A stretch of DNA of 64,000 nt, taken from assembly GCF_000186865.1 (NCBI RefSeq), contig NW_008705570.1, positions 512,941-576,940 of the forward strand, read 5' to 3'. The DNA is from Aureococcus anophagefferens (taxonomy: Eukaryota > Sar > Pelagophyceae > Pelagomonadales > Pelagomonadaceae). The notes below the pieces were generated by a model. The model was not told the DNA's origin, ran no database searches, and saw nothing but the letters and a program-made list of their open reading frames with translations. The position numbers and the translations under genes were made by a program. Below are positions 1,680 to 64,000 of the stretch, piece after piece (position 1 is the first letter of the stretch; each line of letters begins with the position of its first letter).

Positions 1680-3399
1680 GCGGCAACGTCGTCCCTTCGT
1701 CAGGCCGCGGCCGTGGGCATGCTCCGGGCCGCGTCGGCCGACGGCCGCGTCGCCGACCTGGCCGCGGCGCTGACGTCGTCGGGCCTCAGCGACGTCGACT
1801 TCTACTGCCTGTTGGACTACGAGGCGGACCCGGCCCTCAAGGACCCGGCGACCTTCGAGGCCGCGCACGCCGCGGCGCGCGAGGCCGCCAAGCGCGCGCT
1901 GCGGCGCGTCGCGCTGCCGGCGTCCTGGTCGTCGCGCGCGGACTCGGGCGCCGCGCTCGCGGCCGCCGCGGCCGCGCTCCTCGGCGAGCTCGAGGACGCG
2001 AAGCGCCACTACGGCCTCGACGACCCGCCGTCCCTCGCGCTCGTCGCCGCGCTCGCCGCGCCCGGCGCGCTCGCGGCCGTGCCCTGCGCGCGGCGCGACG
2101 TCGACATCCGCCAGACGGCCGCCGGCGTCGCGCTCCGCTTTTGCGGCGAGTCGCGCGCGGCCTACGTGTCGGACAACGCGTCCGTGGCTGTGTGGAATTC
2201 AACCACTGGTTTGGGTGGTCCTGACCAAACTTCAGAATTCTCTATCTCGGTCAAATCGAAGTCGATTCGGCTGATTTTTGGACGAATCGATTGCTCTCGT
2301 CGAGTTCTCGAAGCACAGCCGAAGAGCTTGCGTCGAAACTGTCGCATATGCGCACATTGAAGTCGGGTTGAAGATTTGAATTCCACACAGGTCCGTGGAG
2401 CACCGCGACGCGCGCTGCGTGGCCGCCGACGACGTCTGCGCCTTTTCGCTCGTGCGCCTCCTGTGCGGCTTCCGCGTGACGCCCGCGCGGGGCGCGGCCG
2501 CGGCCGCGCTCGCGGCGCTCCGGGGCGCGGACGCGAGCTGGGACGAGGACCGCGACGACGGGTCCGTGCTCTGCAAGGGCGAGGGCGTGGATGTTTCTTT
2601 CCCGAAGCGCCTGGACGTGAACCTCGCGCTCTGGGCCGAGGGCGAGCGCGACGCGCCGGGCTCCTTCGTCTCGCGGGCGACGCTCGCGGCGGGCGGGCGC
2701 GCGACTTCGATCCTCTGCGAGTCGCTCGACGCGCTCATCCTCGAGCAGCGCGATCTTACGTTCGGGAAGCGCGCCCAGCACCTCGTCATCTGGCGCGTCG
2801 CCAAGTCGGCGAAGCGCCTGCGGCGCCTCGTGGAGCTGTTGGGCGTGAAGCTCTTGGCGGCGCCGGGCTTCGCGCCGCGGACCAAGGCCCAGGCGCTCCG
2901 CGTGCTCCACGCGACGCTCGCGGGCTTCTGCGACCGGAGCTTCCGGGCGAGCGCCGCGGCGGACAAGAAGACGCGCAAGTCCGCCGGCGGCGGCGCCGAG
3001 CCGTTGCGGGAAGCGAACGGGCCCCCGCGGACGGCCGTCAAGGCGCGGCGGCCCGCGCACCGCGACGCGCACCGGCCGCGCGCGGCCGTGGACGCCGCGG
3101 ACCGCGTCGGCTTGGACGCCGCGGAGCTCGCGCGCTGCGACGCGCTTTTTGCGGCGGCGCTCGTCGACGCGTCGCTCGTGCGGCCCCTGGAGCACCTCGC
3201 GCTCCGCGCCTTCGGCGACGCCGCGGACCTCGCGCTGCCGCCGAACTTCGCCGCCAAGTGGGACGCGGTGTTGGCGCCGTTGGTGTCGCTCGTCGACACG
3301 TTCGCGGGCGCCGCGGAGGCCCTCGCGGACGCCAACGCGACGGCCCTCGCGGAGCACCGCCTCTACGACTTCGACCTCGGGACCGCGTGGGCCGCTTAA
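1680..3399 (+). CDS. unknown protein split by an introner (5' partial)
   Basis: The coding sequence enters from the gap at 1680, is interrupted by the intron 2180-2390, and continues 2391-3399 (stop TAA). Splicing at GT of the first duplication copy and AG of the element restores the frame (...SDNAS-VEHRDARC...). The product is helix-rich, with many Ala, Leu and Arg residues, no membrane segment, and a basic Pro/Arg stretch near 3030-3100 that looks disordered. I do not recognise a domain. The stop is 33 bp from the convergent glutamate receptor-like gene. Confidence 0.65.
2188..2390 (+). mobile_element. introner element, family A copy 1
   Basis: A 203-bp insertion with terminal inverted repeats CTGTGTGGAATTCAA and TTGAATTCCACACAG (perfect 15 bp). 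It is flanked by the 8-bp duplication GTCCGTGG at 2180-2187 and 2391-2398. The intron is 2180-2390, phase 2. The interior is clearly more AT-rich than the exons. It lies in the sense orientation to the host gene, and I use it as the reference orientation of family A. Confidence 0.93.
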
Positions 3400-3432
3400 A
3401 GGAGGTTACTGCCCATCGTCCACGGAGTACTA

Positions 3433-5421
3433 CTAGTAGTAGGCGGCGCCGAGGCCGCAGTACGCGTCCGGCGACGATTCGGTGCCCTCCGCGTCGCGCG
3501 TGACGACGGCGTCGAGCGGCGTTGGCGCGGCCAGGATCGCGTCGAGCTTCGCCTCGACGCGTTGGAGCGCCGCGGCCGTCGACTCGGGCCCGGCCCGCGG
3601 CACCTTCGCGCGCCGCTTCCTCCGCTCCCGCGGCGACTCGGGGCTCGGCGGCGCGGGCTTCTCGGGCAACGCGGGCGGCTCCGGCGGCGCGACGCGGTCG
3701 TCCGGGGCGCCGCGGCGGCGGCGCCGCTCGAACGCCGCCCACAAGAGCGACGCCGCCGCGATCGCCGCGAAGATGTAGAAGACCTACGGTGTTTTTTCGC
3801 GCGCCGTACTTCTCGTAAGAACAAGGAGACACCGGGTACGCGCCCCGGCCATGTCGCCCATCTTGATCTGCGTCGTCTCGCCGACCTCGGCCTCGCCGCA
3901 CGACTCCGCGCGGCGGAAGCGCTCGTCGAAGACGGCGTAGATCGACGCGTAGGAGTAGAGCGCGTCGATGGTCGAGGAGATGTTCCGCGCGAGCGCCGCG
4001 TCGTTCGCGAAGACGTGCGTGTGGAGCATCATGAGCCGGATGCCCGCGGCCGGGTGCAGGTCCTCGCAGTGGTCGAGGCCTGTGTGGAAATCAAATCTTC
4101 AACCCGACTTCAATGTGAGCGTATTCGAATGTTTTGACACACGAACTTCCGCTGTGCTTCGAGAACTCGATGAGAGCAATCGATCCGTCCAAAAATCAGC
4201 CGAATCGACTTCGATTTGAGCGAGCTAGAGAATTTCAAAGTTTGGTCGGGACGTCCCAAACCAGTGGTTGATTTGCACACAGGTCGAGGCCGACGAGGTG
4301 GAGGCCGACGTCGTTGGAGATGAAGATGTCCGCGGCGCCGCCGAGCACCGCGTCGACGCACCACGCGGTCCGCGCGCCGAGCTCGTCGTAGCCGTAGGCG
4401 ACGCCGTCCGCCGCGTGCGTGTCCGGCGAGATCGTGCCCGCGACGAGGCTCCCGAGCATGGCGACGAGGGACCCGTACTCGACGCACGCGACGGACGTCG
4501 CCAGGTCGTCCATGGTCTGCGGGCCCAGGACCTTGACGTTGGGCCGCGTGAGGAACGCCGCGAGGTTCGCCGTGTACGTCGCCGACGTCACGAGCGCGAA
4601 GAACAAAAAGCCGAGGCGGAACGCGCGGCCGGGACCGCGGAGCCACTCGAAGTCGTCGCCGGCGAGGAGCAGCGCCGTCGCGTGGTAGAGCTGCGTCGCC
4701 GCGGACTCGACGCCCGCCGACAGGGTGCGCGGCGCGCCGTCCGCGGCGACGGCGATGGCGAACGCGACGACGCCGCCGACGACGACCGTCGCCGCGACCG
4801 CGAGCCAGAGCCGCCAGTGGAACCTGGGGATGATGCAGCGTGAGTGTTCCGCGCGCGCGCGTTCCGGAAAAAAGCATCCACGCGTCGAGAGCGCTCCGAG
4901 AGATGATCGCTCGTCCACAAATCAGCCGAAACGAGTTGAAAACGGCCGAGATCGGAAGTTGGGAATTTCGCACCCTTTTCCTGCCCTGAGTGGAACGGGT
5001 CGAAGATGGACCAGGCGCCCGACCGCGTGTTCGTCTTCCTCGTCAGCCCCGTGAACGTGTAGGACACGAACGGCGTGCGCGCCATGGAGACGCCGTCCTC
5101 CTCCGTCGAGAACTCGAAGATGACGTCGCAGGTGCCGTTTCGCAGGAGCTCGGCCCAGTCGCTCGTCGAGGGGACCACCACGTCCTGGATCTGGAAGTCC
5201 ATCTCCGCGGCCAGGAGGTCCATGAGGTCCGGGTAGAGGCCGACGATCTGGCCGCCGTCGTCCGTGCCGTAGTAGGGCTCGGCGCTCGTCCCGAGATAGC
5301 CCACCCTCACCGTCGTGCCCGCGCAGCAGCCGCGCGCCGGGTTGTAGCCCTCGTATAAATTGATGTTCGTGTCCGCGCCGGCGGACGCGGCCAGCAGCGC
5401 GACGGTGGCAGGAAGCCGCAT
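3433..5421 (-). CDS. ionotropic glutamate receptor-like ligand-gated channel
   Basis: Four exons (5421-4997, 4823-4291, 4079-3844, 3783-3433) give 514 residues. A signal peptide ('MRLPATVALLAASAGA') is followed by the S1 half of a periplasmic-binding-type ligand domain ('GLYPDLMDLLAAEMDF'). Membrane helix M1 is at about 147-170, followed by a pore segment, then M3 with 'SATYTANLAAF' at about 221-231, matching the hallmark SYTANLAAF gate of ionotropic glutamate receptors. S2 follows, then M4 at about 399-418 and a basic, Pro-rich tail. There is no large amino-terminal domain, so it resembles the minimal plant/bacterial-like layout. Introns 1 and 2 are introners. Intron 3 (3784-3843, 60 bp) appears to use a GC donor, because only that choice joins 'MGDMAG' to 'VFYIFAA'. 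Confidence 0.88.
4080..4282 (-). mobile_element. introner element, family A copy 2
   Basis: 203 bp. On the gene strand the duplication is GCCTCGAC (plus-strand 4283-4290 and 4072-4079), the element begins CTGTGTGC and ends CCACACAG. The intron spans 4080-4290 with a GC donor, phase 1. Excision joins 'HLVGLD' to 'HCEDLHPAAG' in frame. The element is sense to the channel gene. Confidence 0.92.
4824..4988 (-). mobile_element. introner element, family B copy 1 (short)
   Basis: 165 bp. Duplication GTTCCACT on the gene strand (4989-4996 and 4816-4823). The donor-side end reads CAGGGCAGGAAAAGGG. The acceptor-side end is shortened and diverged, ending CATCATCCCCAG, against the 192-bp full-length copies, but it keeps the AG. 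Intron 4824-4996, GT donor, phase 2. Excision joins 'FDP' to 'FHWRLW' at the start of M1. Confidence 0.88.
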
Positions 5422-5542
5422 TATTCCATAAACGAGAGCTGCCCCGTAGTTCAAGTTAACTTTGTCATTTTGATTGACCAGCAACATCAAGGCTGCGAGG
5501 ACATGGGCATCGATTTGGCTGATTTGTGCTAGCGGCTTTCAG

Positions 5543-6488: not shown

Positions 6489-6535
6489 AGTCGATTCTTG
6501 AAGTCTGGGAATCGCCGAGCTTCTGAACTGAGAGC

Positions 6536-13466: not shown

Positions 13467-13471
13467 CAGAG

Positions 13472-17916: not shown

Positions 17917-20488
17917 AGGTCTAGGCGCTGGCCGAGGGCGTAGAACGCCGCGAGCGCGACCGCGAACGTCGTCGCGTCGAACGCGCGCGGCGCCGCGGCG
18001 CGCAACGCGGCCAGCAGCCCCTCGTTCACGGCCACCAGCAGCCGCGTCTCGAGCCACGCCTCGCTGAGCTTGCCGCACGTGTGGAGGGCCAGGTGCGAGA
18101 TGGGCAGGCCCATCGCGCCCTCGTGGCAGAACGCCTGGAGCAGCGGCAGGTCGTCGCCCTGGAGCACCTCGGCCCCGAAGTCCATGAGCGGCGCGGCCCG
18201 GGCGAGGACCTTGATGGCCTCGAGGAGGAGCCGGCCGCACCAGGTCGCCTGGGCGAGGTCGCGCATCGGGCTCCGCAGCGTGAGCGGCAGCACGGGATCC
18301 GGCGGCGGCACGTAGGCGTCCATGAAGAAGGTCTCGTCCGGCGGCGGCGGCGCGGACCGCGGCGTCGCGCCCGCCACGGTCCACGTCGCCCGGCTCCGGA
18401 CGTCCGCGGACGACGCGCCCACGAGAAGGTCGAACGCGCCGTCGTCCGCGCGCCATTTTTCGAGGCGCGAGTCCCAGTAGGCGAAGCAGCGGAAGTCGAG
18501 CGCGAAGGTCGCCGTCTTCGTCTCCCCGGGCCTACCAAGCACGTCGGTCACGATTTCAAATTCCCGGTCAAAATCTCTCGAAAATCGTCGCCGCCACGGG
18601 ACGCCGGCCCGGGCTCCAGAAACAGCTTCGCGAAGCGCTTCAGCTCGAAGAGCGGCCGCCGGAGCCTCGGGTTCCGCTCGGAGACGTACAATTGGACGAC
18701 CTCGCTTCCGGCGACGGCGCCCGCGTTCGCCACGGCGACGCGCAGCTCGGGGTCGCACGCGCCGGCGCCCGGCGTCAGGGCGATCTCGCCGTACGTAAAG
18801 GTCGTGTAGCTGAGGCCGTGGCCGAAGGGGAAGAGCACGTCGCGCGCGTGGCGCGGCCGCGCGAAGTGGCGGTAGCCCACGTCGAGCCGGTCGTCGTAGA
18901 CGACCTGGCGCATCTTCCCAAAGGTCCGCGCCGACGGGTGCGCCGCGGCGGACCTGGCGAAGGTCTCCGCGAGTTTGCCGCCCGGGTTCGCGGCGCCGAA
19001 GAGGAGATCCGCGAGCGCCGAGCCGCCCGCTTCGCCCGCGAGGTACATCTCCAGGACGGCCGCGACGTCGCCGACCCAGGGCATGGCGACGGGCGACCCG
19101 TTCTGGAGCACGACGACGACGTCGCGCCGCGTCGCCGCGACGGCCGCGATGAGCGCGTCCTGGTCCGGCGGCAGGTCCAAACCGAGGCGGTCGTAGCACT
19201 CCGACTCGTACGCCTGCGGGAGGCCGGCGACGACGACGACGGCGTCCGCGCCCTCCACCAGCGCCAGCGCCTCGTCCCGGAGCCGCGCCCGCCGGCGCCG
19301 CGCCCGGAAGCCGCCGTCGACGACGCGCGACGTCGTCAATTCGTAGCCCGCCGCGTGCGAGATCGTCGCGTAGGCCCCGAGCGCCGCCAGCGGCGCGTCA
19401 GGGGAGCAGTTGACGCCCGAGGACCCGTTGCCCTGGACCCGCGGCCGCGCGGCGAGCGCCCCGAGCACGGCGACGCGCCGGCCCCGGACGAGCGGCAGCG
19501 CGCCGTCGTTCTTGAGGAGCACGGCGCCGCCGACGGCCGCGCGCCGCGCGAGCGCGCGCGCGGCGCCGTCGTCCACGGGCGCGTCGCCGGGCCCCGACGC
19601 CGCCGCGAGGGCGAGCGCGACGACGCGCGCCGCGCAGGCGTCGACGGCGCTCGACGGCAGCGACCCGTCGGCGACGGCGCGCTTCAGCGCGGCGCCGCGG
19701 ATGCCGTGGCTCGTCGGCATCTCGAGGTCCATGCCCGCGGCGACGCCTTTGACGCGGTCGCGCACGGCCCACCAGTCGCTGACGACCAAACCCTCGAACC
19801 CCCACTCGTCGCGGAGCACGCGCCGCAGGAGCCAATCGTGCTCGCTGCAGTAGGCGCCGTTGAGGCGATTGTACGCCGTCATGACCGTCCAGGGCTTCGC
19901 CTCCCGCACGACCATCTCGAAGGCCGGCAGGTACAACTCCCGCAGCGTCCGCGCGTCGACGCGCGAGTCGCAGAACATGCGGTTCGACTCCTGGTTGTTC
20001 GCCGCGAAGTGCTTCACCGACGCGCCGACGCCCGCGTTGCGCTGGCAGCCCCGGACCCAGGCCGCGCCGAGGGACCCGGACGCGTAGGGGTCCTCGGAGA
20101 GGTACTCGAAGTTGCGCCCGCAGAGGGGCGACCGCTTGAGGTTGACGCCGGGGCCCAGCACGACGCCGACGCCGCGGTACCGCGCCTCGGCGCCGATGCT
20201 TTCGCCGACGGCCTCCGCGAGGTCGACGTCGAAGGACGACCCGAGCGTCACGGCCGTGGGGTAGCAGTGCGCTTCCGTCGTCAAACTTAAACCGCCGCCG
20301 ACGACGGCGCTGCTCTTGCACTTGCGCAGGCCGTGGGGGCCGTCGGAGAGCCAGACGCTCTGCACGCCCAGCCGCGCGCAGCCCACGGTCGTCCACCAGT
20401 CGCGGCCGGACACGGCGGCGACGCGCTCGTCGAGGCTCATGCGCGCCACGATCGCCTCCGCCTCGGCGCGCAAGTCGGCCGGCGCCAT
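17913..20488 (-). CDS. glycoside hydrolase family 3 beta-glucosidase
   Basis: Exons 20488-18615 and 18531-17913 give 830 residues. The N-terminal barrel has 'SDGPHGLR' and 'GPGVNLKRSPLCGRNFEYLS', then 'KHFAANNQE', and the nucleophile region 'GLVVSDWW'. The second alpha/beta domain has 'VVVVAGLPQAYESECYDR'. The fibronectin-like C-terminal domain is bridged by the introner: 'LKRFAKLFLEPG' before and 'ETKTATFALDFRCFAYWDS' after, a continuous family motif. About 130 further residues beyond the domain are unassigned. No signal peptide is obvious, so a cytosolic or vacuolar site is possible. Its start diverges from the 2OG oxygenase gene. Confidence 0.9.
18532..18606 (-). mobile_element. introner element, family C copy 1
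   Basis: 75 bp on the gene strand, starting CGGCGTCCCG and ending GTGCTTGGTAG. Duplication GCCCGGGC at 18607-18614 (intron side) versus GCCCGGGG at 18524-18531 (exon side), one mismatch. Intron 18532-18614, GC donor, phase 2. Sense orientation. Confidence 0.87.
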
Positions 20489-28599: not shown

Positions 28600-28888
28600 G
28601 GTTTTGAGTGCATTTTTCAATATCTTTCCGAGTTGAAAAAACAGTTATGGGGAAACATCATGAGCTCCATCAAATAAAACTCATCCGTGCCCCGTCGAGG
28701 TGTGGCATCGCCTGCCCCGCGCCGACACAGTTTTTCCGCGTCGACGCCCGCCGCCGGGGGCGCGGCTGCCCCGGCCGCCGCCGCGGCGCGTCTCTGGCCG
28801 CGCCGGTGCGCTCCGCGCGCCGCCGCCCGCGGCGGCGAAGGTCCGCGGAGACCGTTTCGAAGGGCGAAGAAGCGCGCGCCCGACGACC

Positions 28889-41200: not shown

Positions 41201-44200
41201 GGCCGCGGCGCCGAAGAAGGAGTCCCGGGAGGAGCGCAAGAAGCGCCGCAAGCGCGAGAAGGAGGCCGCGAAGAAGGCCGCCGCGGAGAAGGAGCAGGCG
41301 CCCGCCATGGACGCGCTGGGCGCGGCCATGGCCAAGGTCGCGACGACGGACCGCGCGCGGAAGCGCCTCAAGGCCGCGGCCGACGCCAAGGTCGAGGACG
41401 ACAAGATCATCAAGGAGATCTCCCAGACGTCGAACTTCAACCTGTCGCGCAAGAAGCCGAAGACGCCCGACCTGTTGCTCGCGAAGGCCGCCCGGAAGGC
41501 GAGTTTAGCGGAGGGCGCGGCGAAGCGCATGCGCGCGCGGACCATGTTCCTCAACGGCCGCACGGCCAAGGTCGAGGAGCTGCGCGATAAAGTCGAAAAA
41601 TCGCTGGCGAACCACAAGCCGCGGAAGCGCAAGCACCTCCGCGCGTACGTCAAGATGGTCATGTTCAGGGCAGCAAAAGAGAGCGAAATTCCCAACTTCA
41701 AAGGCTCCGATCTCGGCCGTTTTCCACTCGTTTCGGCTGATTTTTGGACGAGCGATCATCTCTCGCAACGGTCTCGAAGCGTGGATGCTTTTTATGGAAC
41801 GCGCGCACGCGGAACACTCACGTTGAAGCGACGTTGAATCACCCTTGTCCTGCCCAGGTCATGTTCCAGCTCAAGATGAACAAGGCGATGAAGTCGACGC
41901 AGCTCAAGAAGGCCGCGGGCAACGACGACGACTTAGATCCCGAGGACATCGACATCTTCGGCGACATCGACGAGGACGCCATCCTGAAGAAGATCGCGGA
42001 GAAGGAGGAGGAGGCGAACGCCGCGCCGGACCAGGCGCCGCCGGATCCGCCGGACTGGAAGGCCATGAGCGACACGGACAGGACCTACGAGCTCATGGTC
42101 GCCTGCCTCGACCCCGACGTCATCGGCCTCGCCATCGCCGAGGACCCCATGGTCGTCACGCCGGACCCGGAGGACTGGGCGGACGTCGGCGGCTACCGGA
42201 AGTCGCGGATCCGCGCGTTCTCCAAGTGGTACGGCCGCACCGTCGCCAACGGCGGCGCGTCCGAGGCGCGCAAGATGTTCTTCAGCGCCGAGGCGACCTA
42301 CGCCTACCACGAGCCCACGGTGCGCAACAAGGCCCTCGAGGACAAGGTGCCGAAGATGGTCCGGGGCATCTCGAACACGTTCCGGCGGTGGTACGCGGAG
42401 CACGGCGAGATCCGGTCCGCGTTCCTGAAGCGCCACGCGGAGAAGCTCCACATGCGCCGCCGCGCCCACGTCGCCGACCTGGTGATCCCCTGGCCCGCGG
42501 CGCCCCTCGTGCTCAACGACCTGCCGCCGCTGGCCGTGCTGGCGCGGCAGCCGGACCCGCCCATGCGCTACCACCTCTTCCCGAGCCGGTCCAAGGAGAC
42601 CTGGAGCGTCGTCGAGATTTTGAAGTGGTACGCGGACAACCCGGGGGCGCTCGCGGAGGACCGGCGCGCCGTCGGCGACCTGGCGACGTCCGCGGTGCGC
42701 AAGTGGCGCCGCGAGGAGTGGATGCGCCACGAGGCGAGCCGCCAGGTCCAGAGCCGGCGCGAGATGCAGTGGGAGGACCAGCGCGGCGAGGCCGTGCGCA
42801 AGAGCGATAGAGAGTTGGCGGAGGCCGAGGCGCGCGTCGCCGCCTTAGTCGGCGGGCGCGACGCGTCGTCCGCGGAGCGCGTCGTCGAGTCCCTGCTCAA
42901 CCCCGCCGAGGACGACGTCGCCGAGGACGACGCGACGAACGCGCTCGACGCCGCGCCGCCGCCGGAGGCCGCGCCCGCGCCCGAGGCCGCGCCGCCCGGC
43001 GAGGGCGACGCGGCGGACGCGCCGCACGACCTCGTGCTCGCGTCGCTGCTGGGCGAGGACTTCCAGAGCGCGCTGGAGCCGCCGCGCTACGTCGCCGGCA
43101 GCGGCCTCGACAACGGCGACGAGCTCATCGACGCGCGGGACCGGGCCCGGTGGGAGAAGGACGAAGCGGAGCGCGCGCACCGCGAGGAGGCGCTGCGGAA
43201 ATCCGAGGAGAAGCGGCGCAAGGAAGAGGAGGAGCGGAAGAAGAAGGAAGAGGAGGACCGCCAGCGGCGCGTGCGCCAGACCGCGGAGGAGCGCGCGCGC
43301 ATCGAGGCGCACCTCCGCGAGATCAAGCAGAAGCGCGTCGCCAAGGCCCACTCCGAGGAGCTGCGGAAGCTGCGGCTCGAGAAGGAGGAGGCGGAGCGCG
43401 TCGCCACCGACGTCGCGCTGGCGATCAAGTCCATCCACGCGTGCTGGCGCGCGGAGGCCGACGACGCGATCCGGCCCCTCCTGCGGGAGAAAGCGTTGAA
43501 GGACGCCGCGGAGGCCAAGCTCCGGGAGCAGGAAGCCGCCGCGGACGAGGAGGCCCGCCGCGAGGAGAACTACGTCGAGTCGGAGGAGGAGCGCGCCGTG
43601 CGCGTGTTGCGGGAGGAGCAGCAGGCGCTGCTCGAGTTGGTCTACACGCCGTACGAGCCCATGTTCGAGGACGACGACGACGTGCTCGCCTTCGCTAGGG
43701 GCGAGACGGACAAGTTCAAGCTGCCCGAGTCGGCCATCCTGGGCAAGGCCGTGGGCGGCGTCAAGAAGCGGAGCCGGAACCGCGACGTCCTCTCGTACGC
43801 CGAGGCTCTGGTCTACGACAAGCCGTCGATCCCCAAGTTCGTCGAGACGCGGTCCACGGACCGCCTCGACCGCATCATGCGCCTCCCGCGGCGCCAGTCC
43901 CTCGCCACGTCGGCGTCGGGCCCGCTGCCGCGCGACGGCGCGGGCGTCGTCGACGCGCTCCGCGTGCGGCGCACGTTCTCGCCAGGGCAGCAAAAGGGTG
44001 ATTCAACGTCGCTTCAATGTGAGTGTTTCGCGCGCGCGCGTTCTAGGAAAAGCATCCACGCTTCGAGAGCGCTCCGAGAGATGATCGCTCGTCCAAAAAT
44101 CAGCCGAAACGAGTGGAAATCGGCCGAGAAAGGAGCCTTTGAAATTGAGAATTTCGCACCCTTTTCCTGCCCAGGTTCTCGCAGCACGTGTCGCTCGCGG

Positions 44201-44845
44201 ACCTCGACCGCTTCGCCGCGGAGATGGAGGCGACGTTCCCGCGGCCCGAACACGGCCCGCTGCCTTTCGACGACCACAAGTCGAGGAGCCTGTCCCAGCA
44301 GTCGAAGTTCGACGCGTCGACGCTCCGGTCGCGCGCTGTGTGGAATTCAACCACTGGTTTGGGTGGTCCTGACCAAACTTGAGAATTCTCTAGCTCGATC
44401 AAATCGGAGTCGATTCGGCTGATTTTTGGACGAATCGATTGCTCTCGTCGAGTTCTCGAAGCACAGCCGAAGAGCTTGCGTCAAAACTGTCGCATATGAG
44501 CACATTGAAGTCGGGTTGAAGATTTGAATTCCACTCAGGTCGCGCGCGGCGTCCGGCGACGTCGAGGTCGACGACGACGTGCTCGAGGCCGTGCCCCTCT
44601 TCCCGAAGCGCGACGAGTCGCCGGTCCACGCGGCCATGAACGCGGCGCGCCGCCGCGTCGCCGCGGCCCAGGCCGCGCACGCGCGGAACCGCCGCGACGA
44701 CCCGCTGCCCTTCGCGTCGACGGCGTCCGGCGCGGCCTTTGCGCTGGGCGGCAACACCATGTCCATCCACCAGCCCGTGCCCAAGCCCAAGGTCGTCGTC
44801 GCGCTGCCCCTCGCGCCCCGCCGGCGCCGGAGGGAGGACGATTAA
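35252..44845 (+). CDS. giant WD40-like / FN3-like / coiled-coil protein with three introners
   Basis: Exons 35252-41657, 41858-43974, 44175-44327 and 44539-44845 total about 2,994 codons. Residues 1 to about 950 contain WD40-type blades ('TCDREGVLKLWRW', 'VLRKGGFWVWDAYTG', 'VAGHGDGTVAAWDV', 'VVSSDGEVRVWSGARL', 'VLGTFDGDVEVWALP'). A disordered linker follows, then helical segments, one fibronectin-III-like stretch ('SGTFKIKGLEPEVQYYVYA'), Asp/Glu-rich loops and long charged coiled coils. The frame changes once at about 38620-38640 (one extra base) between 'MREKRLGPPDPPP' and 'PTPEASLQQTSSDPASTYRP', with no stop. The gene could alternatively be two genes meeting there, but the frame upstream of the Met at 38706 reads as coding. 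A large scaffold is inferred. Confidence 0.65.
41666..41857 (+). mobile_element. introner element, family B copy 2
   Basis: 192 bp, sense. Ends CAGGGCAGCAAAAGAG and CCCTTGTCCTGCCCAG. Duplication GTCATGTT at 41658-41665 and 41858-41865. Intron 41658-41857, GT donor, phase 0. Excision joins 'AYVKM' to 'VMFQLKMNKA'. Confidence 0.93.
43983..44174 (-). mobile_element. introner element, family B copy 3
   Basis: 192 bp, antisense to the host gene. Duplication GTTCTCGC at 43975-43982 and 44175-44182. Plus-strand ends CAGGGCAGCAAAAGGG and CCCTTTTCCTGCCCAG. Intron 43975-44174, GT donor, phase 2. Excision joins 'RVRRTFS' to 'QHVSLADLDRF'. Confidence 0.93.
44336..44538 (+). mobile_element. introner element, family A copy 4
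   Basis: 203 bp, sense. Duplication GTCGCGCG at 44328-44335 and 44539-44546. Ends CTGTGTGGAATTCAA and TTGAATTCCACTCAG (one change in the right repeat). Intron 44328-44538, GT donor, phase 2. Only 153 bp of exon separates it from family B copy 3. Confidence 0.93.
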
Positions 44846-48490: not shown

Positions 48491-48732
48491 ACTCGCTCGC
48501 GGCGCCGAGTGTAGACTCGCTCGCGCCGAGTGTCGACTCGCTCGCGCCGAGTGGCGACTCGCTCGCGCCGAGTGTCGACTCGCTCGCGCCGAGTATAGAC
48601 TCGCTCGCGCCGAGTATAGACTCGCTCGCGCCGAGTATAGACTCGCTCGCGCCGAGTGTCGACTCGCTCGCGCCGAGTGTCGACTCGCTCGCGCCGAGTG
48701 TCGACTCGCTCGCGCCGAGTATAGACTCGCTC
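48478..48732 (+). repeat. 12-unit, 21-bp tandem array with 5-bp stems and variable loops
   Basis: Twelve units of GCGCCGAGTnnnnACTCGCTC at 48478, then 48502 and every 21 bp to 48732, with 3 extra bases after unit 1. CGAGT and ACTCG can pair around the 4-base centre. All differences between units fall in that centre, in order GTAG, GTAG, GTCG, GGCG, GTCG, ATAG, ATAG, ATAG, GTCG, GTCG, GTCG, ATAG. A degenerate thirteenth unit starts at 48733. The array separates two convergent genes, and the upstream gene's stop codon lies in the first loop. Confidence 0.9.
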
Positions 48733-48793
48733 GCGCCGCGCGTCGAGGGCAGTTTAGTTACGAGCTTGCGCGCGCCGCGCCGCTGCCGCCGCG

Positions 48794-52551: not shown

Positions 52552-54499
52552 TTACTCCGCCTGCTTAAACTCCGGGACCTGGGCCGGCGCCTCCGTCGCC
52601 TCCTCCTCCGTCGCCTCCTCCTCCTCCTCCTCCTCGGGTTCCGTGCGCACCTGGAGCGTCTTCCAGTTGAACTCCCACGCCGCGCCGCTCTCCGGGTCGC
52701 CGTGCTGGCTCCAGTCGCGGTCCAGCGGCACGTGCGTCGGCGTCGCCAGCTGCACGTTGAGCGCGGCGCTTTCCGCCAAATTCACGTGCGCCTGGTGCCA
52801 GCCCGTGGGGACGTAGAGCACCTCGCCCGGCCGCTGGACGCACTCGAGGGGCTTCGGGAAGGGCCAGTTGCCGGCGTCGAGGCGGTCCGCGAAGGCGTGG
52901 ACGCCGCCCTCGGGGTAGTGCGAGACCGGGGGAAATAGGAACCAGCGCGTCGCGCCGTAGGCGAGCGCGTGGTACGCGGCGCCCTGGACGTGGAACGTCG
53001 CGCCCGAGCCCGGACCCCCAACCGCCACGAGTGCCATGGCCGCCCGCTCCTCCTCGGCGATGTCGTGGCGCTCGTGGCGCTCCGATTCGACCATGAGCGC
53101 GTCGAGCTCCGGCGACTCCGTGTTCAGCAGCTCGACGAGCTCCTCGTTGCGCTCGAGCACGTAGGGCGCCTCGCCCGCCAGGACGTCCATCTTGAAGTGG
53201 ACGAAGTCGCGCAGCGTCGTGAAGGGCTGCTCCTCGACCCAGCCCATGAAGCTGTAGGCCCGGCGCGCGGCCGTCATCGAACTGTCGTGCACGAAGACGG
53301 ACTCGTCGCCGAGCGGCGCCGCGGCGAGCGCCTCCTTCGTCCAGCCGGGCTGCATGGCCCCGAGGAGGCCGCCGAGGAGCACGGGCTTCTCCGGGACGAC
53401 GTACTCGCTCGTGAAGGACTCGAGGGTGAGCCCCGCGCGCCGGTCGACGGTCTCGGGCGTCTCGTTCAGCTTCGGCGTCGCCCAGCCGCCGGAGTCGCCC
53501 GCGGGCGGCGCGTAGTCCGCCGCGGGCGGCGGCGCGTCCCCCGTGCCCGCGCGGGCCCGCGCCAGCACCGCCGCGTAGGCGCCGGCGCCGCCCCACGCGA
53601 GCGCCTGGTCCGCGACGGACCACGAGCTATGCGCCTTGACCATCTCGAACTCGTCCGCGCCGTCCCCGCCGGCCTCCTGGGCGGCGACGCCGCGGCAGAT
53701 CGCGGCCAGCATCTCCGTGCGGCCGCCGCCGAGCTCCTCGGGCAGGAACGGGAGGCCCTCCGCCGCGCGGCCCAGCGTCGCCAGCGTGAAGCAGAGCGTC
53801 GACGCGAGCTTGGGCGCGTCGTCGCCGTCCGCCGGGAGGGCGAGCGCCTTCTTGAGCACGGCGGCGGCCTCTTCCAGCTTTTCGAGCTTGAGCAGGGCGT
53901 TGACGTAGGCGTCGAGGCCCGCCTCGCCGAGGTCGACGCGGTCCTCGTCGCCGACGGCCGACCACATGTCGTCGAAGAGCGCCACGGCCTCGGCGTGCTC
54001 GCCGCCGCGCGCGCGGAAGAGGGCCGTGTTCACCTTGACCTCGCCGACGTTTCGCGGCGAGCACTCGATGGTTTCGGTCAGCTTCGCGAAGGCCGCGGGG
54101 CGGTCCGTTTTCAGCAATTCGGACGCGTCCTTGATGACCTACCAAATGCGTCGGTGACGATTATTCGTCGTTTTCCCGGTCCGAAGCTCTCAAAAATCGT
54201 TCCGGGACGCTGTTGATGACCTGGCGCGCGTCCATGATCGACAGCTGGCACTCGCCCTCGGGCGGCTTCTGGTATTCGTAGGGAATCTCGTACTTGGCGC
54301 GCTTCGTCGGCGTGGCCTTTTTGCTCCGCAGCTTGCTCTTCGGTGGGCCGCCCGTCGGCCAGAACACGCTGGCGAGGAGCGCGACCGCGACCGCGGCGCC
54401 GGCGCCGAGCATCTTCTTGTCCATTGGCTTGCCCCGCTTCTTGATAGTCATCTTTGGCTTCGGCTTCGCCGCGATGACGGTCGACTTCTTCGGCCCCAT
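52552..54499 (-). CDS. ER-type JmjC (JMJD8-like) protein with TPR-like region
   Basis: Exons 54499-54221 and 54138-52552 give 621 residues. 'MLGAGAAVAVALLASVFW' is a single membrane anchor. After the introner, residues about 95-300 form TPR-like helices ('VNTALFRARGGEHAEAVALF', 'AYVNALLKLEKLEEAAAVLK'). The C-terminal half is a cupin_8/JmjC domain: 'GGPGSGATFHVQGAAYHALA', 'TRWFLFPPVSHYPEGG', 'GEVLYVPTGWHQAHVNLAES'. The proximal Fe motif reads His-Val-Gln, so the second ligand is not Asp or His. An acidic tail ends the chain. The luminal location is inferred from the anchor and similarity to JMJD8. Confidence 0.8.
54139..54212 (-). mobile_element. introner element, family C copy 2
   Basis: 74 bp, sense. 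Duplication GTCATCAA on the gene strand (54213-54220 and 54131-54138). Begins CAGCGTCCCG and ends CATTTGGTAG. Intron 54139-54220, GT donor, phase 0. Excision joins 'IMDARQ' to 'VIKDASELLKTD'. Confidence 0.9.
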
Positions 54500-57279: not shown

Positions 57280-58556
57280 ATGGCGCCCAAGCGCTCGCGC
57301 AGCGGGCGGCGCAGCGGACGCGGCGGCGGCGGCGGCGGCGCCGGCGGAGGCAACAGCGGCAAGCCCACGGCGCCAGCGCGCCGCCGCGGCCGCGACGAGG
57401 TCAAGCGCTTCGTGCCGACGCGGGCGCGCGGCGGCGACAACACGAGCACACAGCCCTCGACCGCGCACAACAACGACGACGACGACGCCGACGACGACGC
57501 CGACGACGAGGACGAGGAGCCGCCGCGGAAGCGCGCGGCGACGAAGCTGGACGTCGCCGGGCTCGACGACGACGACGCGTCCGACGACGACGCCGCGGAG
57601 GCGCCGCCGGCGCCGCCGCCGAAGCGGGCGCCGCCGCCGAGGAAGGCGCCGCCGCCCGCGAAGCCGGCGCCGCCCAGGGCGCCGCCGCCCGCGAAGCCGC
57701 CGAAGCCGCCGTCGCCCGTCGCGGTCTGGCGCGGCGGCGCGAAGCCGCCGCGGAGGCTCGGTCCGGCGGCGATGGCCGAGCTCGCGTCGGCGCTGCAGAG
57801 CGACGCCCGCGGCGCGCCCTTCGGCGCCTTCGCGCCGTCGAAGCCCAAGGCGCCGCCGCCGCCGGGCGACCAGTACCGCGTCGACGTCGACCCGCGGCCC
57901 CACCCGCCGCCGCCGCCGCCGCGCGCCGCGCCGGTCGACGCCGCGCCGGCGGACGCCGCGCCCGAGCCCGAGGCGGACGACGAGCCCGCCGAGGGCGGCC
58001 GCGAGTCGCCCTGCGCGGCGGCGCGGGCGCGCACGCCCCGCGCGGCGCCGCCGCCGGCCGCCGCCGCCGAGGCCCGCGACGCGCGGGGCAGGAAAAGAGT
58101 GCGAAATTCCCAACTTCAAAGGCTCTTATCTCGGCCGGTTTCCACTCGTTTCGGCTGATTTTTGGACGAGCGATCATCTCTCGGAACGGCCTCAAAGCGT
58201 GGATGCTTTTTCTGGAACGCGCGCGCGCGGAACGCTCACGTTGAAGCGACGTTGAATCACCCTTTTCCTGCCCAGGCGACGCGTCGAAGCCGCTCTTCGG
58301 GCTCGTCGCGAAGCCGTCCGCGTTCGAGACGGCCGACGCGTCGCCGCTGTCGCCCTGGTGGCTCGGCGGCGGGCCGCCGTCGCTGGCCAAGAAGCACGCG
58401 CCCCCGGCCTGGCTCGCGCCCGCGGCGAAGCCGGCGTCGCCGCCGAAGCCGCCCGCCGAGGCCGCGCGCGACGCGCGCGCGCGATTCGCCGCGGAGGGCG
58501 CCGAGTCCGCGAGCTTCGACGCGTTCCTCCTCGGCGCCCTCGACCCGGCGACGTAA
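57280..58556 (+). CDS. low-complexity Pro/Ala/Asp-rich nuclear-type protein, unknown
   Basis: Exons 57280-58075 and 58276-58556 give 358 residues. The N-terminus is basic and Gly-rich ('MAPKRSRSGRRSGRGGGG'), followed by an acidic Asp run, basic 'PPRKRAATK', and long Pro/Ala stretches. After the introner the sequence becomes more ordered ('SPWWLGGGPPSLAKKH'), ending with 'AESASFDAFLLGALDPAT'. Basic clusters could act as nuclear localisation signals. No domain recognised. It shares a 67-bp divergent promoter with the RAD51B-like gene. Confidence 0.6.
58084..58275 (+). mobile_element. introner element, family B copy 4
   Basis: 192 bp, sense. Duplication GCGACGCG at 58076-58083 and 58276-58283. 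Ends CGGGGCAGGAAAAGAG and CCCTTTTCCTGCCCAG. Intron 58076-58275, GC donor, phase 1. Excision joins 'AAEARDA' to 'SKPLFGLVAKP'. By eye it is over 90% identical to family B copy 2. Confidence 0.92.
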
Positions 58557-58582
58557 CCCTCGATCGATTCTTAAGTGACAAA

Positions 58583-60404
58583 CTACGTGTTCCGCTTGAG
58601 CCCGACGAACGAGAGGACGCGGAAGCCCGCGGCGAAGGCGAGCAGCGCGAGCACGTCGACGTAGAGCGGCTTCTGGAGCACCTGCACGTTGAGGCCCGTG
58701 TGGTCGCCGACGTCGCGGCGCTCGCCGCCGTCGACGTAGGACGCGCCGCGGAACTCGACCTTCAGCATCGCCGAGAACGAGTACTTGGTGAAGGACAAAT
58801 AGCCGAGCCAGTCGAGCCAGGCGGGCACGTTGGCGACGTAAAACCCGCCGCACATCATCGTCGTCAACATGAACACGGTCTCGAAGGTCGCCGCGCGTTT
58901 CAGGTCCGCGATCCACGCGCCGATGGCCAACCCCGCGGACTGCGCCGCGAGGCCGTTGCAGAAGAGCACGAGGCAGTGCCACGGGAGCTTCGCGGGCCGC
59001 AGACCCACGGCGAAGTAGTAGAGCAGGGCGAAGAGCGGCGACACGAGGCACGCGGACACCGTGTCCACCGTCGTCCGCGCGCAGAAGAACGCCGACACGG
59101 AGTACAGGCCCGCCGCGCGCTCCTTGACGAGCACGTCGTGCGCGGGCGGGAACGCGAAGAGCGCCTGGATCATCATCTGGAACCCCCAGTACACGGGCTG
59201 CAGGAAGAGCAGCCCCACCGTGTCCTCCACGGACGCGTCCGTGCGCGGGCGCACGGCCGCGCGGCCGCTCCAGAGCGCCGCGCAGAGCAGCGTGATGGAG
59301 CCGATGTTCGCGAGGAACATGGGGTCGATCAAGTCGAGGCGGTGCGCGAGCCAGCTCCGGCGGAAGAGGATCGCGTACTGCGCCGTCCAGGGGAGCACGC
59401 CGCCGTCCGCCGCGGGCGCCGCGACCGCGACGGCGACCGCCGCGGCCGCCGGCGCCTTCGCGACGGCGTCGAAGTCGCCCGTGCACAGCACGTCCAGCAG
59501 GTGGTCCGCGCAGGGCGTGCCGCGGGGCCGCGCGCGCTTCGCGCAGAGCGCGTCGATCGCGCCGTCCGCGGGGCCGGCGTAGGCCGCGGCGCCGTCCAAT
59601 AACAAGTGGAGCTCGTCGAAGGCGTAGAACATGGCGTCCGTCGGCTGGTGCAAAGTGGCCAGCACCGTCCGGCCGTCGCGGACCATGGTCTTGAGCAGCT
59701 GGAAGAGGCGCGCGGCCGCGAACGAATCCAAGCCTACCACGCACGACGGTGACGATTGCTCAGTGTTTTCCCACCCCACATCTCTCGAAACTCGTTGCGG
59801 GACGCCGATCCGAGCCCGACGTCGGCTCGTCGAGCAGGACGAGGTCCGGGTCGAGGAGCAGCTCGTGGCCGATGGACACGCGGCGCCGCTGGCCGCCGGA
59901 GATCTCGCGCTGGATGTTCGCGCCGCCGATGGGCTGGTCCGCGCAGGACTCGAGCCCGAGCGCGGCGACGGCCGCGGCCGCTCGCGCCGCCGGGTCCGCG
60001 GCGCCGCGGAGCTCCGCCGCGAAGCGCAAAGTCTGCCGCACCGTGAGGTCGCCGAGGAGCGTGTCCTCCTGCTCCACGAAGGCGAGGCGGCGCTTGTGCG
60101 CGCTCCGCGACCACGCCGCGCCGTCGTAGCGCAGGGACCCGCCCGTGACGACTACTTTCCGCTCGAAGCGCGACGAGATCGCCGCAAGGAGCGTGCTCTT
60201 GCCGGACCCGGAGGGCCCGAGCACGGCCGTGAGCGCGCCGCGGTCCGCGCGGCCCGTGAGCCCGTGGAGCACCTCCGCGCGCTTCGGGCCCACGCAGACC
60301 GTCAGGGCGCTCCACTCGACGCTGAGGCCGCTGACGGCCGTGGCGACGGCGTCCTTGCTCGGCGCCGCGCCGGCGACGACCTCGACGTAGCCGGGGTTGC
60401 ACAT
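58583..60404 (-). CDS. ABCG/White-type half ABC transporter
   Basis: Exons 60404-59816 and 59733-58583 give 579 residues. The nucleotide-binding domain is first, as in ABCG: Walker A 'GPSGSGKSTLLAAI', Q-loop 'LAFVEQEDTLLG', signature 'ISGGQRRRVSIGHE', Walker B 'LVLLDEP' with 'TSG-LDSFAA' rebuilt across the introner, and 'LATLHQP' with the H-loop. The ABC2-type membrane domain follows, with about six helices ('YAILFRRSWLAHRLDLIDPM' at its start). Lipid or sterol-like export is typical of the family, but the substrate is not deducible. Half-transporters dimerise. Confidence 0.93.
59734..59807 (-). mobile_element. introner element, family C copy 3
   Basis: 74 bp, sense. Duplication GCTCGGAT (59808-59815, intron side) versus GCTTGGAT (59726-59733, exon side). 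Begins CGGCGTCCCG and ends GTGCGTGGTAG. Intron 59734-59815, GC donor, phase 1. It interrupts the D-loop, and excision rebuilds the invariant 'DEPTSGLDS'. Confidence 0.93.
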
Positions 60405-60652
60405 CGTTTTTGTCGCTACTACGGTGCGCGCGTGCTGTGTGTCGCGTGGGTTTCCAGCGGCGCGAGTTTGTCTGACTAGCACATCGGTGCGCGCCACGGT
60501 GGTTTGCTTCACCGGAGCGCACGGTCACATCACGGTCCGTCAAACATCGCGTCGTTGAGATGCCCCAAAGCTGTCGAACAATCGAGAGGCCAAGGCTGGC
60601 ACGCCCCGGGCGGGGCAGCCGCCGGGAGCGCATCCGTCGACCACAGACACCC

Positions 60653-62616
60653 ATGGCGGCCGTCGACGTGTCCGACGAACCGCCGCCGCCCGCGCCCAAG
60701 GAGCGGAGCGGGCTCCTCGAGTTTCTCATTTGCGGCGACGAGGAGGTCGCCGTCTGGGACCGCATCCGCCCCGACGCGCCGTCCGCGGCGAGCCCGGCGC
60801 GGCGCATCGAGGAGCTCGAGAACACGGTCAAGGAGCTGTCGCGCCTCGTGAAGCCCCACCTGCGGCACAAGCACAGCAAAAAGCACCCGAAGAAGAAGGA
60901 AAAAGAAGTCGAGTTCGAGGCCGTCGACGACGACGAGGAGTGCAAGGACTCGTCGTCGTCGTACAGCGAACCCCACGGCACCGGCGGCATCGTCGACATC
61001 CTCACGCACAAGCACCACGAGGCCGCCCCCGCACGGCCGGGCGTCGACCGCGCGTCGAGCGTCGGCGAGGACGACGAGGGTACGACGCCCGGGGGCTCGC
61101 GGCGCCACTCGAAGCGGACGTCGACGGTGCTCCGCGAGGGCTTCGAGGCGGTCACGGGCGTCCACATCGACGCGCCTGTGTTGAAGAAGCAGGAGTCGCT
61201 CGTCGGGCGCGAGCGGGAGGAGTACCTGACGATGATCCAGGGCGAACTCGCCGACCGTGCGTTCGGCTCTTCCTACTGCTACACGCAGTTCAAGCTCGTC
61301 CACCTCACGCTGAGCTTCTCGTCGCTCACGTCCGCGGCCTGGACCTACACGGGCCTCTGGCTCCAGGCCTACGTATTGTGCACGGTCATCGACGCCAAGT
61401 ACATGAACTGGGACAACCGCAACGTGACGCCGCTCAACTACGAGTCCGCGTCGAACTACTACACGACGAACCCCATGCGCGACGGCTCGGAATACTCGGA
61501 GAACTGGTACGAGCTCACGCGCAAGGGCCACGTCTGGGACATCCCCTTCATCATCATCGGGCCCCTCATGTTCGCGTCTTTGATGATCGCGCTGAGTTTG
61601 CGCCAGGAGATCCACGAGTTGGTGGTGGGCGCGCTGCTGGTGATGCCCAAGTGGGAGGAGTTCCAGCTCTGCGAGACGAGGCTGCAGCGCGCGGGCTGGC
61701 TCATCGGCCGGGGCCTCGCCTACGGCATCCACATTATGAGGCTCTTCGTCGTGTTTCTCTACTTCCAGGCGACGATGTGCGTGCTCGGCACGTCGAACGG
61801 GCCCTTCGCGATCATTTTGGACTGCCTCACGCTCATGTTCATCCTCGAACTGGACAACATGATCCGCTTCGACTCGAAGCACACGCTCTTCGGCCAGGCG
61901 GGCCTCGTCTCCGACAAGAAGGTCGTGCTCTCGAAGCAGCTCCGGGAGATCGCGACGGCCGTCCTCGACTCGGGGACCGCGTGGCGCAGCGTCCTGTGGC
62001 CGTGACGATTTTCGAGAGATTTCGGCCGGGGAAACGATGAGAAATCGTCACCGTCGTGCTTGGTAGGCGTGGCGCTACTACCAGGCGAATATGGAGAACT
62101 TCCTGGTCCTGGCCGTGGCCGTCTTCATGTGCTCCGGCACGGCGCGCATGCAGCGCATCACGTCGCACGGCGAGATCACGATGGCCGACGACCCGGACCA
62201 CGACGAGATGCAGCGCATCTTCTGGGCCATGCAGTTCCTGCTCGTGGCGTCCATCGTCATCCTCATCGTCGGCACGCGGCGCTTCGCTTTGCGCACGGAC
62301 CTGCTGACCTGCACCCTGCTCTTCGTCGTCGACTGCGTCTGCGTCGTCCACATCAACTTTTACGCGGGCGCGGCTCCCCCGCGCCTCCTTTTTTCGTCCG
62401 TCCCCCCGACACCGTCTCCTAGGCTACTACCTGCTGTCCGAGGTCGGCATCTACGGCGAGACGTCCTTCGCCGCCTTCTCCGGGTACGCGAACTGGAAGC
62501 GCGGCATCGCGTTCTACCTCACGAACGACGACGACGGCTGGATCGTCGACGACCAGCTCGTCGACGCGCAGCCCGCGGGCGGCGTGGCCGGCATGGGCAA
62601 GGGCGGCCGCTTCTAA
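60653..62616 (+). CDS. multi-pass membrane protein with cytosolic coiled N-terminus, unknown
   Basis: Exons 60653-61978, 62067-62367 and 62423-62616 give 606 residues. An in-frame ATG at 60560 is an alternative start. The N-terminal 190 residues are hydrophilic with a Lys/His-rich stretch and acidic clusters. At least six hydrophobic segments follow ('HVWDIPFIIIGPLMFASLMI', 'FVVFLYFQATMCVL', 'FAIILDCLTLMFIL', 'FLVLAVAVFMC', 'FLLVASIVILIVG', 'LLTCTLLFVVDCVCVVHI'). The layout resembles channel-like or transporter-like proteins, but no family is recognised. Intron 1 is a family C introner. Intron 2 (62368-62422, 55 bp) has a GC donor. The stop is 9 bp from the convergent gene. Confidence 0.7.
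61987..62066 (+). mobile_element. introner element, family C copy 4
   Basis: 80 bp, sense. Duplication GCGTGGCG at 61979-61986 and 62067-62074. Begins CAGCGTCCTG and ends GTGCTTGGTAG, with inner inverted repeats GTGACGATTT and AAATCGTCAC. Intron 61979-62066, GC donor, phase 0. Excision joins 'DSGTAWR' to 'YYQANMENF'. Confidence 0.92.
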
Positions 62617-62625
62617 ATTTTTTGT

Positions 62626-64000
62626 TTACTTGAAGGTCGCCTTGAGCTTCTCGCCCGCGGCGTTGCGTTTGAAGCCCGCGGCGAGCGACTCGCCCGTCGG
62701 CAGCGCGTCGGACAGCTCGAAGGCGTAGCCGACGGCCTTCAGACGCGCCAGGATGTCGCCGCCGCCCGCGAAGGCCGTCAGCGGCGTCAGCCCCGCCCCG
62801 GCCGTCGCCGGGTGGCGCAGCGCGGCCATGCCGCAGACGAGCATGCAGTAGGCCGAGCCGACGTAGCCGCACGCGGCGCCGTGGCCGAGGCCCGGCTCGC
62901 CGATGATGGAACAGACGGCGACGTCGCCGTCGCGCGACGTCGTCGACGCGTCGGAGCCGTGGGCGATGACGACGTCCGTGAAGGCGCTGCCGTAGGACTG
63001 GGCCGCCGTCGGGCCCTCGCCGCGCTTCGGCCTGTGTGGAAACCAACCACTGGTTTGGGTGGTCCTGACCAAACTTGAGAATTCTCTAGCTCGGTCACAT
63101 CGAAGTCGATTCGGCTGATTTTTGGACGGATCGATCGCTCTCGTCGAGTTCTCGAAGCCAAGTCAAAGAGCTTGCGTCGAAACTGTCGCGTATGCTCACA
63201 TTGAAGTCGAGTTGAAGATTTGAATTCCACACAGGCTTCGGCAGCCGGCCCTGCTCGACGGCCTTCAGGGTCTGCTGCGGCGGCGCCGTGACGGAGTAGA
63301 CCATGAACTTCGCGCTGCGCTCGTTCTCGAAGATGGTGTACATCTTCACGCCCGCGGCCCGGGACCCGTTCCATCGCAGCGCGTGCGCCGTGCGCCGGAG
63401 GATCCGACAGTCGCCCGTCGCGAGCGGCGCGGGCCCCAAGTGGACGGCGCCGCCCCAGCGGCCGTCCGTCCAGGCCTCCTTGACGTCGGCCGTCCACCCG
63501 GCGGGCACGTCGTCGCGGCCCTCGACGGCCGCCTGGTCGAGCGTCAGCCCCCAGGGGTCGTCGAGCTTTTCTCGCTTCTCTTCCAGCTGCATCATCGTCC
63601 CGGACGCGACGGACCCGCCGGACATGGCCCCGTTGGCGCAGGTCAGGATCTCCAGGAACGGCGCCTCGCGGCCCGTCCGCTCCTTGAGCCGCGCCACGGC
63701 CAGGGACGCGCCGAACTCCGTCGTCAAAATCTCCTGGGGCCCGACCATCTGGACGAGCGAATTTCCTTTTTCCGCGGCCTCCGTCGCGTGCTTCTTGACG
63801 ACGTCGCCCACGAGCAGGTACTCGCCCGTGAGGTCGAAGTAGACGACCCCGTGGGCCGCGCGCGCGCAGGCGGCGAGGAGCATCCGCGGGCCCTTCTGGC
63901 GGTAGGGGCCCGCGGCGGCGAGGACGACCCTGGCCGCGTCGACCGCGCGGTCGAAGCTCGCGGCTTCCTTCTCGTCGACGACGAAGGCCTTGACGCCGTA
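62626..64000 (-). CDS. saccharopine dehydrogenase-like oxidoreductase (5' partial)
   Basis: Exons 64000-63243 and 63031-62626 are present; the start lies beyond the window. 'VVLAAAGPYRQKGPRMLLAA' and 'VVYFDLTGEYLLVGDV' match the saccharopine dehydrogenase-like (SCCPDH/trans-acting enoyl reductase) family, whose N-terminal Rossmann fold would precede the visible part. 'AMSGGSVASGTMMQLEE' is also typical. The introner joins 'EQGRLPK' to 'RGEGPTAAQSYG' in frame. The C-terminus has a hydrophobic segment ('GYVGSAYCMLVCGMAALR'), as in the lipid-droplet-associated members. Enzymatic activity of this family is poorly defined. Confidence 0.8.
63032..63234 (+). mobile_element. introner element, family A copy 5
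   Basis: 203 bp, antisense to its host gene. On the gene strand the duplication is GCCGAAGC (63235-63242 and 63024-63031), the element begins CTGTGTGGAATTCAA and ends CCACACAG. Intron 63032-63242, GC donor, phase 2. Confidence 0.93.

Follow-up and report, generated by a model that had tools for sequence, protein, structure and literature searches.

The 64-kb window analysed here, the whole stretch of 64,000 nucleotides taken from Aureococcus anophagefferens, carries 13 insertions that are very probably copies of three families of short elements, likely non-autonomous and hAT-like, and that are predicted to be complete introns in A. anophagefferens genes. Elements of this kind, termed introners, are a leading explanation for bulk intron gain in genomes. 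As an earlier note on this DNA had stated, they are known from Aureococcus, being published for A. anophagefferens; the core finding is thus already known, and the window provides an independent recovery of the published case from raw sequence. What we add is an asymmetry in the terminal bases of the elements, their sense-only distribution, the kinship of two of the families (A and B), and a sibling element with CA...TG ends.

In these insertions, the AG acceptor is carried by the element and the GT or GC donor is taken from the duplicated target of the gene. A hAT-type transposase would insert the element, the spliceosome would cut the first copy of the target-site duplication (TSD) together with the element out of the RNA, and selection would eliminate any insertion that cannot be spliced out. 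In families B and C, the splice end reads C-T inward, which is AG in sense, and the opposite end begins with C-[A/G] or, rarely, C-C; a single change at terminal position 2 may have converted a CA...TG element into an introner in these two families. The earlier proposal that transposon insertions generate introns in this DNA is supported, with AG coming from the element and G[T/C] from the TSD in most of the genome copies listed.

Thirteen insertions with duplicated target sites

The 8-mer upstream of each start given in the earlier note was sought again downstream, and all 13 insertions were recovered where they had been placed. They belong to family A (202–203 bp; copies at 2188, 4080, 27769, 44336, and 63032), family B (165–192 bp; 4824, 41666, 43983, and 58084), and family C (74–80 bp; 18532, 54139, 59734, and 61987). 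The GC content of the elements is 46–59%, as compared to 71% for the window. The TSD of 8 bp is exact in 11 of the 13 insertions and matches at 7/8 positions in the other two, 18532 (CCCCGGGC and GCCCGGGC) and 59734 (ATCCAAGC and ATCCGAGC), so the earlier statement that every insertion is flanked by an 8-bp duplication was a slight overstatement. Its splice-site claim, G[T/C] at the start of the TSD and AG at the end of the element on the coding strand, holds for one strand in all 13; at 4080 and 63032, a G[T/C]...AG pair is present on both strands. The predicted introns are listed below.

2180..2390, plus strand: TSD copy 1 and family A element 2188–2390 (203 bp), phase 2; TSD GTCCGTGG 8/8, frame continuity.
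4080..4290, minus strand: family A element 4080–4282 and TSD, phase 1, in a ligand-gated-channel-like gene; TSD GTCGAGGC 8/8, frame, Lig_chan PF00060 across the junction.
4824..4996, minus strand: shortened family B element 4824–4988 (165 bp) and TSD, phase 2, in the gene shared with 4080; TSD AGTGGAAC 8/8, frame.
18532..18614, minus strand: family C element 18532–18606 and TSD, phase 2, in a GH3-type gene at the FLEPGET junction; TSD 7/8, PF14310 across the junction.
27761..27970, plus strand: TSD and family A element 27769–27970, phase 1, in a P-loop-like GLGCGR/CGTSS (a slash marks the junction); TSD GCGGCACG 8/8, intron-free protein P0054 continuous over the junction.
41658..41857, plus strand: TSD and family B element 41666–41857, phase 0; TSD GTCATGTT 8/8, frame.
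43975..44174, plus strand: TSD and family B element 43983–44174, phase 2, internal orientation opposite to 41666; TSD GTTCTCGC 8/8, inverted arms I5.
44328..44538, plus strand: TSD and family A element 44336–44538, phase 2; TSD GTCGCGCG 8/8, frame with one side weak.
54139..54220, minus strand: family C element 54139–54212 and TSD, phase 0; TSD TTGATGAC 8/8, proteins P0052 and P0053 continuous over the junction.
58076..58275, plus strand: TSD and family B element 58084–58275, phase 1; TSD GCGACGCG 8/8, frame less clear.
59734..59815, minus strand: family C element 59734–59807 and TSD, phase 1, in an ABC transporter gene at DEPTS/GLDS; TSD 7/8, ABC_tran PF00005 stops at the junction.
61979..62066, plus strand: TSD and family C element 61987–62066, phase 0; TSD GCGTGGCG 8/8, frame.
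63032..63242, minus strand: family A element 63032–63234 and TSD, phase 2, both strands spliceable with the frame favouring minus; TSD GCTTCGGC 8/8, frame.

Excision restores the reading frame

We trained a codon model on the open reading frames (ORFs) of the window and scored the flanks of each insertion after deleting TSD copy 1 and the element. The codon model was used instead of the longest ORF across each junction, a choice that led to wrong frames in DNA of 71% GC. After excision, the best sense-strand frame is identical on both flanks at all 13 insertions, bearing out the earlier claim that removal rebuilds the codons. On one flank of 44336 and of 58084, the two strands score about equally, and 58084 (locus L039) fails the stricter frame test used for genome loci. 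If the insertion is retained in the RNA, the frame is shifted at 12 of the 13 sites, and the 210-bp insertion at 27769 introduces an in-frame stop instead.

The ABCG motif DEPTSGLDS and the GH3 motif FLEPGET, both said in the earlier note to be rebuilt, are restored in the rejoined LLDEPTS/GLDS and FAKLFL/EPGET. For its third motif, a sulfotransferase P-loop, the rejoined protein does read GLGCGR/CGTSS, but the sulfotransferase match at 27769 (PF17784, E value 0.0095) lies under the Pfam cut-off. This Pfam search was made with eight junction products covering nine of the 13 junctions. The Fn3-like domain PF14310 spans the 18532 junction (E value 1.1e-22; residues 172–242, junction at 200), Lig_chan PF00060 spans the 4080 junction (E value 1.7e-9; residues 25–279, junction at 200), and the ABC_tran PF00005 match ends at the junction of 59734. 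Three of the eight products gave no Pfam family.

At two of the 13 junctions, 27769 and 54139, insertion-free database proteins are continuous over the site. P0054 (523 aa) shows 98% identity over its full length to the rejoined 27769 protein and carries the same GLGCGR/CGTSS sequence. P0052 and P0053 (both 97%, with a 528-aa query from the 54139 gene) begin upstream of the 54139 junction and read IMDARQ/VIKD and IMDARQ/IIKD, respectively. The longest contig for P0054, 1,678 bases, would fit a transcript, and that for P0052, 5,751 bases, may be genomic.

Genome-wide copies and the splice-site rule

We searched the genome for the exact end patterns plus the 8 bases next to them, with the reversed patterns as the control. 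B gave 1668 matches, A 821, and C 40, and the corresponding reversed patterns gave 16, 1, and 1; because the terminal-pattern counts far exceed these controls, chance is excluded. A full-length B pattern with T at one end at least had 1220 matches in the genome and 0 in the reversed control. We examined the end listings for 100 of the 1668 B matches, 100 of the 821 A matches, and all 40 C matches. Among the matches listed, G[T/C] follows the AG end in 58/58 cases for B, and for A it is present on at least one of the two sides in 89/90 AG ends. For C, the count by eye is 39/40, the remaining one being GA. A family C copy at G000 C6:1379343 (L130) with GA at the start of its TSD is coding-continuous and possibly represents a GA-AG intron. 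Non-AG ends among the matches listed number 42 for B and 10 for A; the matching [A/G]C is found at the far side of the TSD in 36/42 and 7/10, and 6/42 and 3/10 do not fit the rule.

Reading frames were then scored at two sets of loci. Set 1 comprises 60 best-match A and B loci, including the window copies L010 and L039, of which 55 keep strand and frame on the spliceable strand (A 27/30, B 28/30). The TSD in this set is 8/8 at 27/30 A and 27/30 B loci. Set 2 comprises 79 pattern-picked loci (the first C1 entries for families A and B, and 20 of the 40 for C); C1:327290, which is L040 and already in another set, was left out, and the L092 pair was handled apart. In this set, 66/79 keep strand and frame on the spliceable strand (A 18/20, B 32/39, C 16/20).

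Control positions read as coding in 1929/2662 cases in the window and 519/840 in the locus flanks, and shuffled stretches do so at a rate of 0.137. The coding enrichment over control is moderate, and the strong result is the orientation: counting only coding-continuous copies for which a single strand is spliceable, 115 lie in sense and 0 in antisense (114 and 0 without the window copies). The intron phases 0/1/2 are distributed as 48/29/44, in agreement with the availability of G[T/C] by codon position in 16 window ORFs (0.40/0.254/0.346). In all three families, many near-identical copies sit at predicted intron positions in unrelated genes, and it is this high similarity between copies, not dated insertions, that suggests an ongoing gain of introns.

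A terminal-base asymmetry in the elements

Families A and B can be aligned over a common core, TCGGCTGATTTTTGGACGA, and flanking blocks, and by this alignment the two families are kin that differ in their terminal repeats. At G000 C13:46453-46781, variant A-type ends (CTGTGTGGAATCATTTGAAG and others) form a cluster of three and may belong to a further introner subfamily. In B, one end begins with CTGGGCAG (AG in sense) and the other with C[A/G/C]GGGCAG. We aligned the ends of 69 B copies, consisting of 29 best-match loci, 36 of the 39 pattern-picked loci, and the 4 window copies; L075, L090, and L104 were dropped because their second end was not clear. In 69/69 copies, T occupies position 2 at one end and not at the other, and this T end is the acceptor beside the G[T/C] TSD in 68/69, with L087 as the exception. 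The T end is found at one internal end in 44 copies (T-right) and at the other in 25 (T-left). By eye, none of the 100 full-length places listed, each seen up to a point before its far end, appears on both strands, as would be expected of copies with T at both ends if both strands are listed.

The T side shows a link to one internal site (p 4.6e-8) and weak links to a few more. Because of this link, and because identity is 0.939 within T sides versus 0.935 between them, the T-left and T-right copies are read as two sublineages of one family. Positions 9 and 11 of the B terminal inverted repeats (TIRs) agree between the two ends in 58/69 and 57/69 copies (Fisher p 4e-8 and 2e-8; the copies are related and the tests not independent). 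With 20 tests per position taken into account, these two positions showed no clear link with internal single-nucleotide polymorphisms (smallest p 0.08 and 0.009). The two terminal repeats of B seem to evolve in concert, except that position 2 remains different. Family C has the B pattern: position 2 of the 5' end is A in 11, G in 6, and C in 1 of the 18/20 copies with a usable TSD, and the 3' end is TAG in 40/40.

Two loci, L092 (C1:618576-619054) and L153 (C32:77547-78048), have B-type end pairs with a different interior, spanning 479 and 502 bp, respectively. Both carry CA...TG at both ends (CAGGGCAG...CTGCCCTG). L153 is flanked by an 8/8 TSD, CGCGCGAC, in DNA without a coding-like frame (best score 0.01). 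At L092, a matching TSD is absent, and one flank scores as coding (0.34) and the other does not; this element has one further copy only (n = 2 in total). The pair, two copies only, fits an origin of spliceable ends from CA...TG ends.

Based on these patterns, we tentatively suggest that a single base makes the introner. Family B would derive from a hAT miniature inverted-repeat transposable element (MITE) with CA...TG at both ends; with T substituted at position 2 of one end, ...CTG becomes the acceptor ...CAG. The change would have occurred at each end and been kept at one only, with the spliceosome claiming one end and either transposition or acceptor access forbidding the other. Retention at one end only is suggested because TIR positions 9 and 11 mostly match between the ends and position 2 never does. 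This terminal-base pattern yields a specific and testable model by which an ordinary transposon could become an introner.

Probable assignment to the hAT class

Maize Ac/Ds is a hAT system, and hAT termini follow the consensus CA(G/A)NG. The 8-bp TSD, a hAT trait, is present in the window and in the genome copies. One end of B carries either CAGGG, which is of hAT type, or CGGGG, and L153 and L092 have CAGGG at both ends; C has CAGCG or CGGCG at one end, and A begins with CTGTG. In PMC3260210, the maize Ac/Ds ends are given as C/TAGGG... with an 8-bp duplication. The three families have inverted or partly inverted ends and are likely hAT-like DNA transposons of the non-autonomous kind. A viral source was also considered, and a search of viral contigs with the 19-mer from the A/B core gave one match, L072, which was taken as chance, no element being found in the 541 surrounding bases. 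A GTAAGT donor pattern was uninformative (148 matches versus 217 in the control).

Counterevidence and rival explanations

Several results weigh against our interpretation. No transposase or autonomous partner was found with the PF05699 profile and the A and B exclusion patterns. The profile of the hAT transposase, PF05699, gave no match, and its control was equally silent. The B exclusion pattern had 0 matches versus 1 in the control and is blind to L092-type ends at its S position. The A exclusion pattern had 22 matches versus 7 in the control, several of which resemble A copies altered by indels, and the matches listed include no opposed pair 1–10 kb apart. In set 2, a TSD of at least 7/8 was seen in only 14/20 A, 33/39 B, and 16/20 C loci. 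Thirteen of the 79 set 2 loci fail the frame-and-splice test, including L077, L089, L095, and L152, which are spliceable and not coding-continuous, and L087, which has an exact TSD without a G[T/C] start. Family A has mostly T at both ends (13/18 pattern-picked copies; 25/30 best-match copies begin with CT and end with AG), and the one-end account therefore does not cover it. The insertion-free proteins P0052–P0054 may be spliced products or products of empty alleles.

Finally, the loss of harmful insertions by selection probably explains only part of the distribution, and preferential insertion into genes may play a role. A random TSD would start with G[T/C] at a frequency of 0.198, or 0.357 on either strand. 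From the listed ends, the upper bound on the share of unfiltered copies is 6.3% for B, 8.1% for A, and 14.2% for C based on AG ends, and 14.4% for B and 13.9% for A based on all 100 listed ends. Selection alone does not readily account for the rarity of unfiltered copies: their share is bounded at about 6–14%, and 27–38% of control positions, untranslated regions and introns included, do not read as coding.

These bounds (6.3–14.4% against 27–38%) favour a rival in which the elements are the same and their gene-only distribution results mainly from targeting of insertion into transcribed genes, with selection secondary. Introners across eukaryotes are likewise enriched in genes, in 161/175 introner genomes according to Gozashti et al. 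2022 (PMC9860276). However, the intergenic share must be lower than 27–38%, since the positions not reading as coding include untranslated regions and introns; the strict sense orientation and the G[T/C] starts require a filter as well; and the canonical-ended sibling L153 sits outside coding-like sequence. We regard predominant targeting as possible but rather doubtful. The 115:0 sense bias and the rarity of unspliceable copies make selection and insertion targeting separable by experiment.

Reverse splicing, in which intron copies spread via RNA without DNA transposition, as proposed for fungal introner-like elements, would agree with scorable copies lying mostly in genes in the spliceable sense orientation (115:0). 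It is nevertheless highly improbable, as the elements have inverted terminal repeats and the first 8 bp of the intron equal the next 8 bp of the target (8/8 in 27/30 A and 27/30 B best-match loci), whereas reverse splicing would bring the 8 bp of the donor gene. Equally improbable are ordinary, unspliced MITEs that disrupt genes or pseudogenes, with G[T/C]..AG as a target-site preference: the hAT-like ends and TSDs suit them and splicing here is predicted from sequence, but retention gives a frame shift or stop at 13/13 sites, a symmetric target preference does not give 0/115 antisense copies, and insertion-free proteins exist for 2/13 sites.

Comparison with known introner systems

The abstract of Huff et al. 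2016 reportedly describes one splice site carried by the introner and one co-opted. Our comparison with the A. anophagefferens introners of Huff, Zilberman and Roy (2016) was made by their description in citing papers, not by element sequence. The host species is very likely the same, judging from one protein, P0060, although a very close relative is possible. According to PMC7789003, these introners have direct repeats, TIRs of constant length, and canonical splice motifs, and a passage in PMC9481584, citing Huff et al. 2016, gives their length as ~210 bp, compared with 210–211 bp for the A introns here. In the titles and abstract openings of the introner literature (Aureococcus, hAT, Micromonas, pelagophyte), to which this comparison extends and outside which Huff et al. 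2016 and its supplements fall, we saw no terminal-base pattern, and we do not claim that it is unpublished. Nor did the cited passages of the introner papers mention the position-2 asymmetry, the kinship of A and B, or the canonical-ended sibling.

Other systems resemble the present one in part. An Aureococcus sp. example carries both splice sites and adds 12 bp (PMC9860276, Fig. 2F legend), whereas the 13 insertions here restore the exact length, and a Symbiodinium introner has a 4-bp duplication (PMC9860276, Fig. 2B legend). The introner elements of Amoebophrya (PMC7789003) also have direct and inverted repeats at the intron ends; their direct repeats are 3–5 nt and their splice sites mostly non-canonical, in contrast to 8 bp and G[T/C]...AG here. 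Maize Ds1, a member of the Ac/Ds family, is according to PMC3260210 likewise a short non-autonomous element with an 8-bp duplication that is spliced from an exon. The Ds1 cases are single mutant alleles, whereas exact introns are predicted in bulk here.

Other features of the window

One further region was matched to a database protein by tblastn.

26866-30889, plus strand: region collinear with P0060, hypothetical protein JL722_13241 [Aureococcus anophagefferens].

P0060 matches this region in three pieces, in order, with 100, 95, and 88% identity. When P0060 is aligned with the initial portion of the rejoined 27769 gene, 106 of 108 aligned residues are identical, with one long gap. Another named match to the rejoined 27769 protein is from Chrysophaeum taylorii, at 42%. 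Tandem units of 123/126 bp occupy 23036-23650, the minus strand of which matches part of P0060 with 39–45% identity. P0060 is listed with PF00514, which we take to be the armadillo repeat. The C-terminal 36 residues of P0053 match 51353-51460 on the minus strand, and the remainder of this protein matches 52840-54499. The window also contains a run of 50 N at 1630-1679 and, at 48460-48780, a 111-nt stretch with copies in register at 21-bp spacing, 11 of which are listed.

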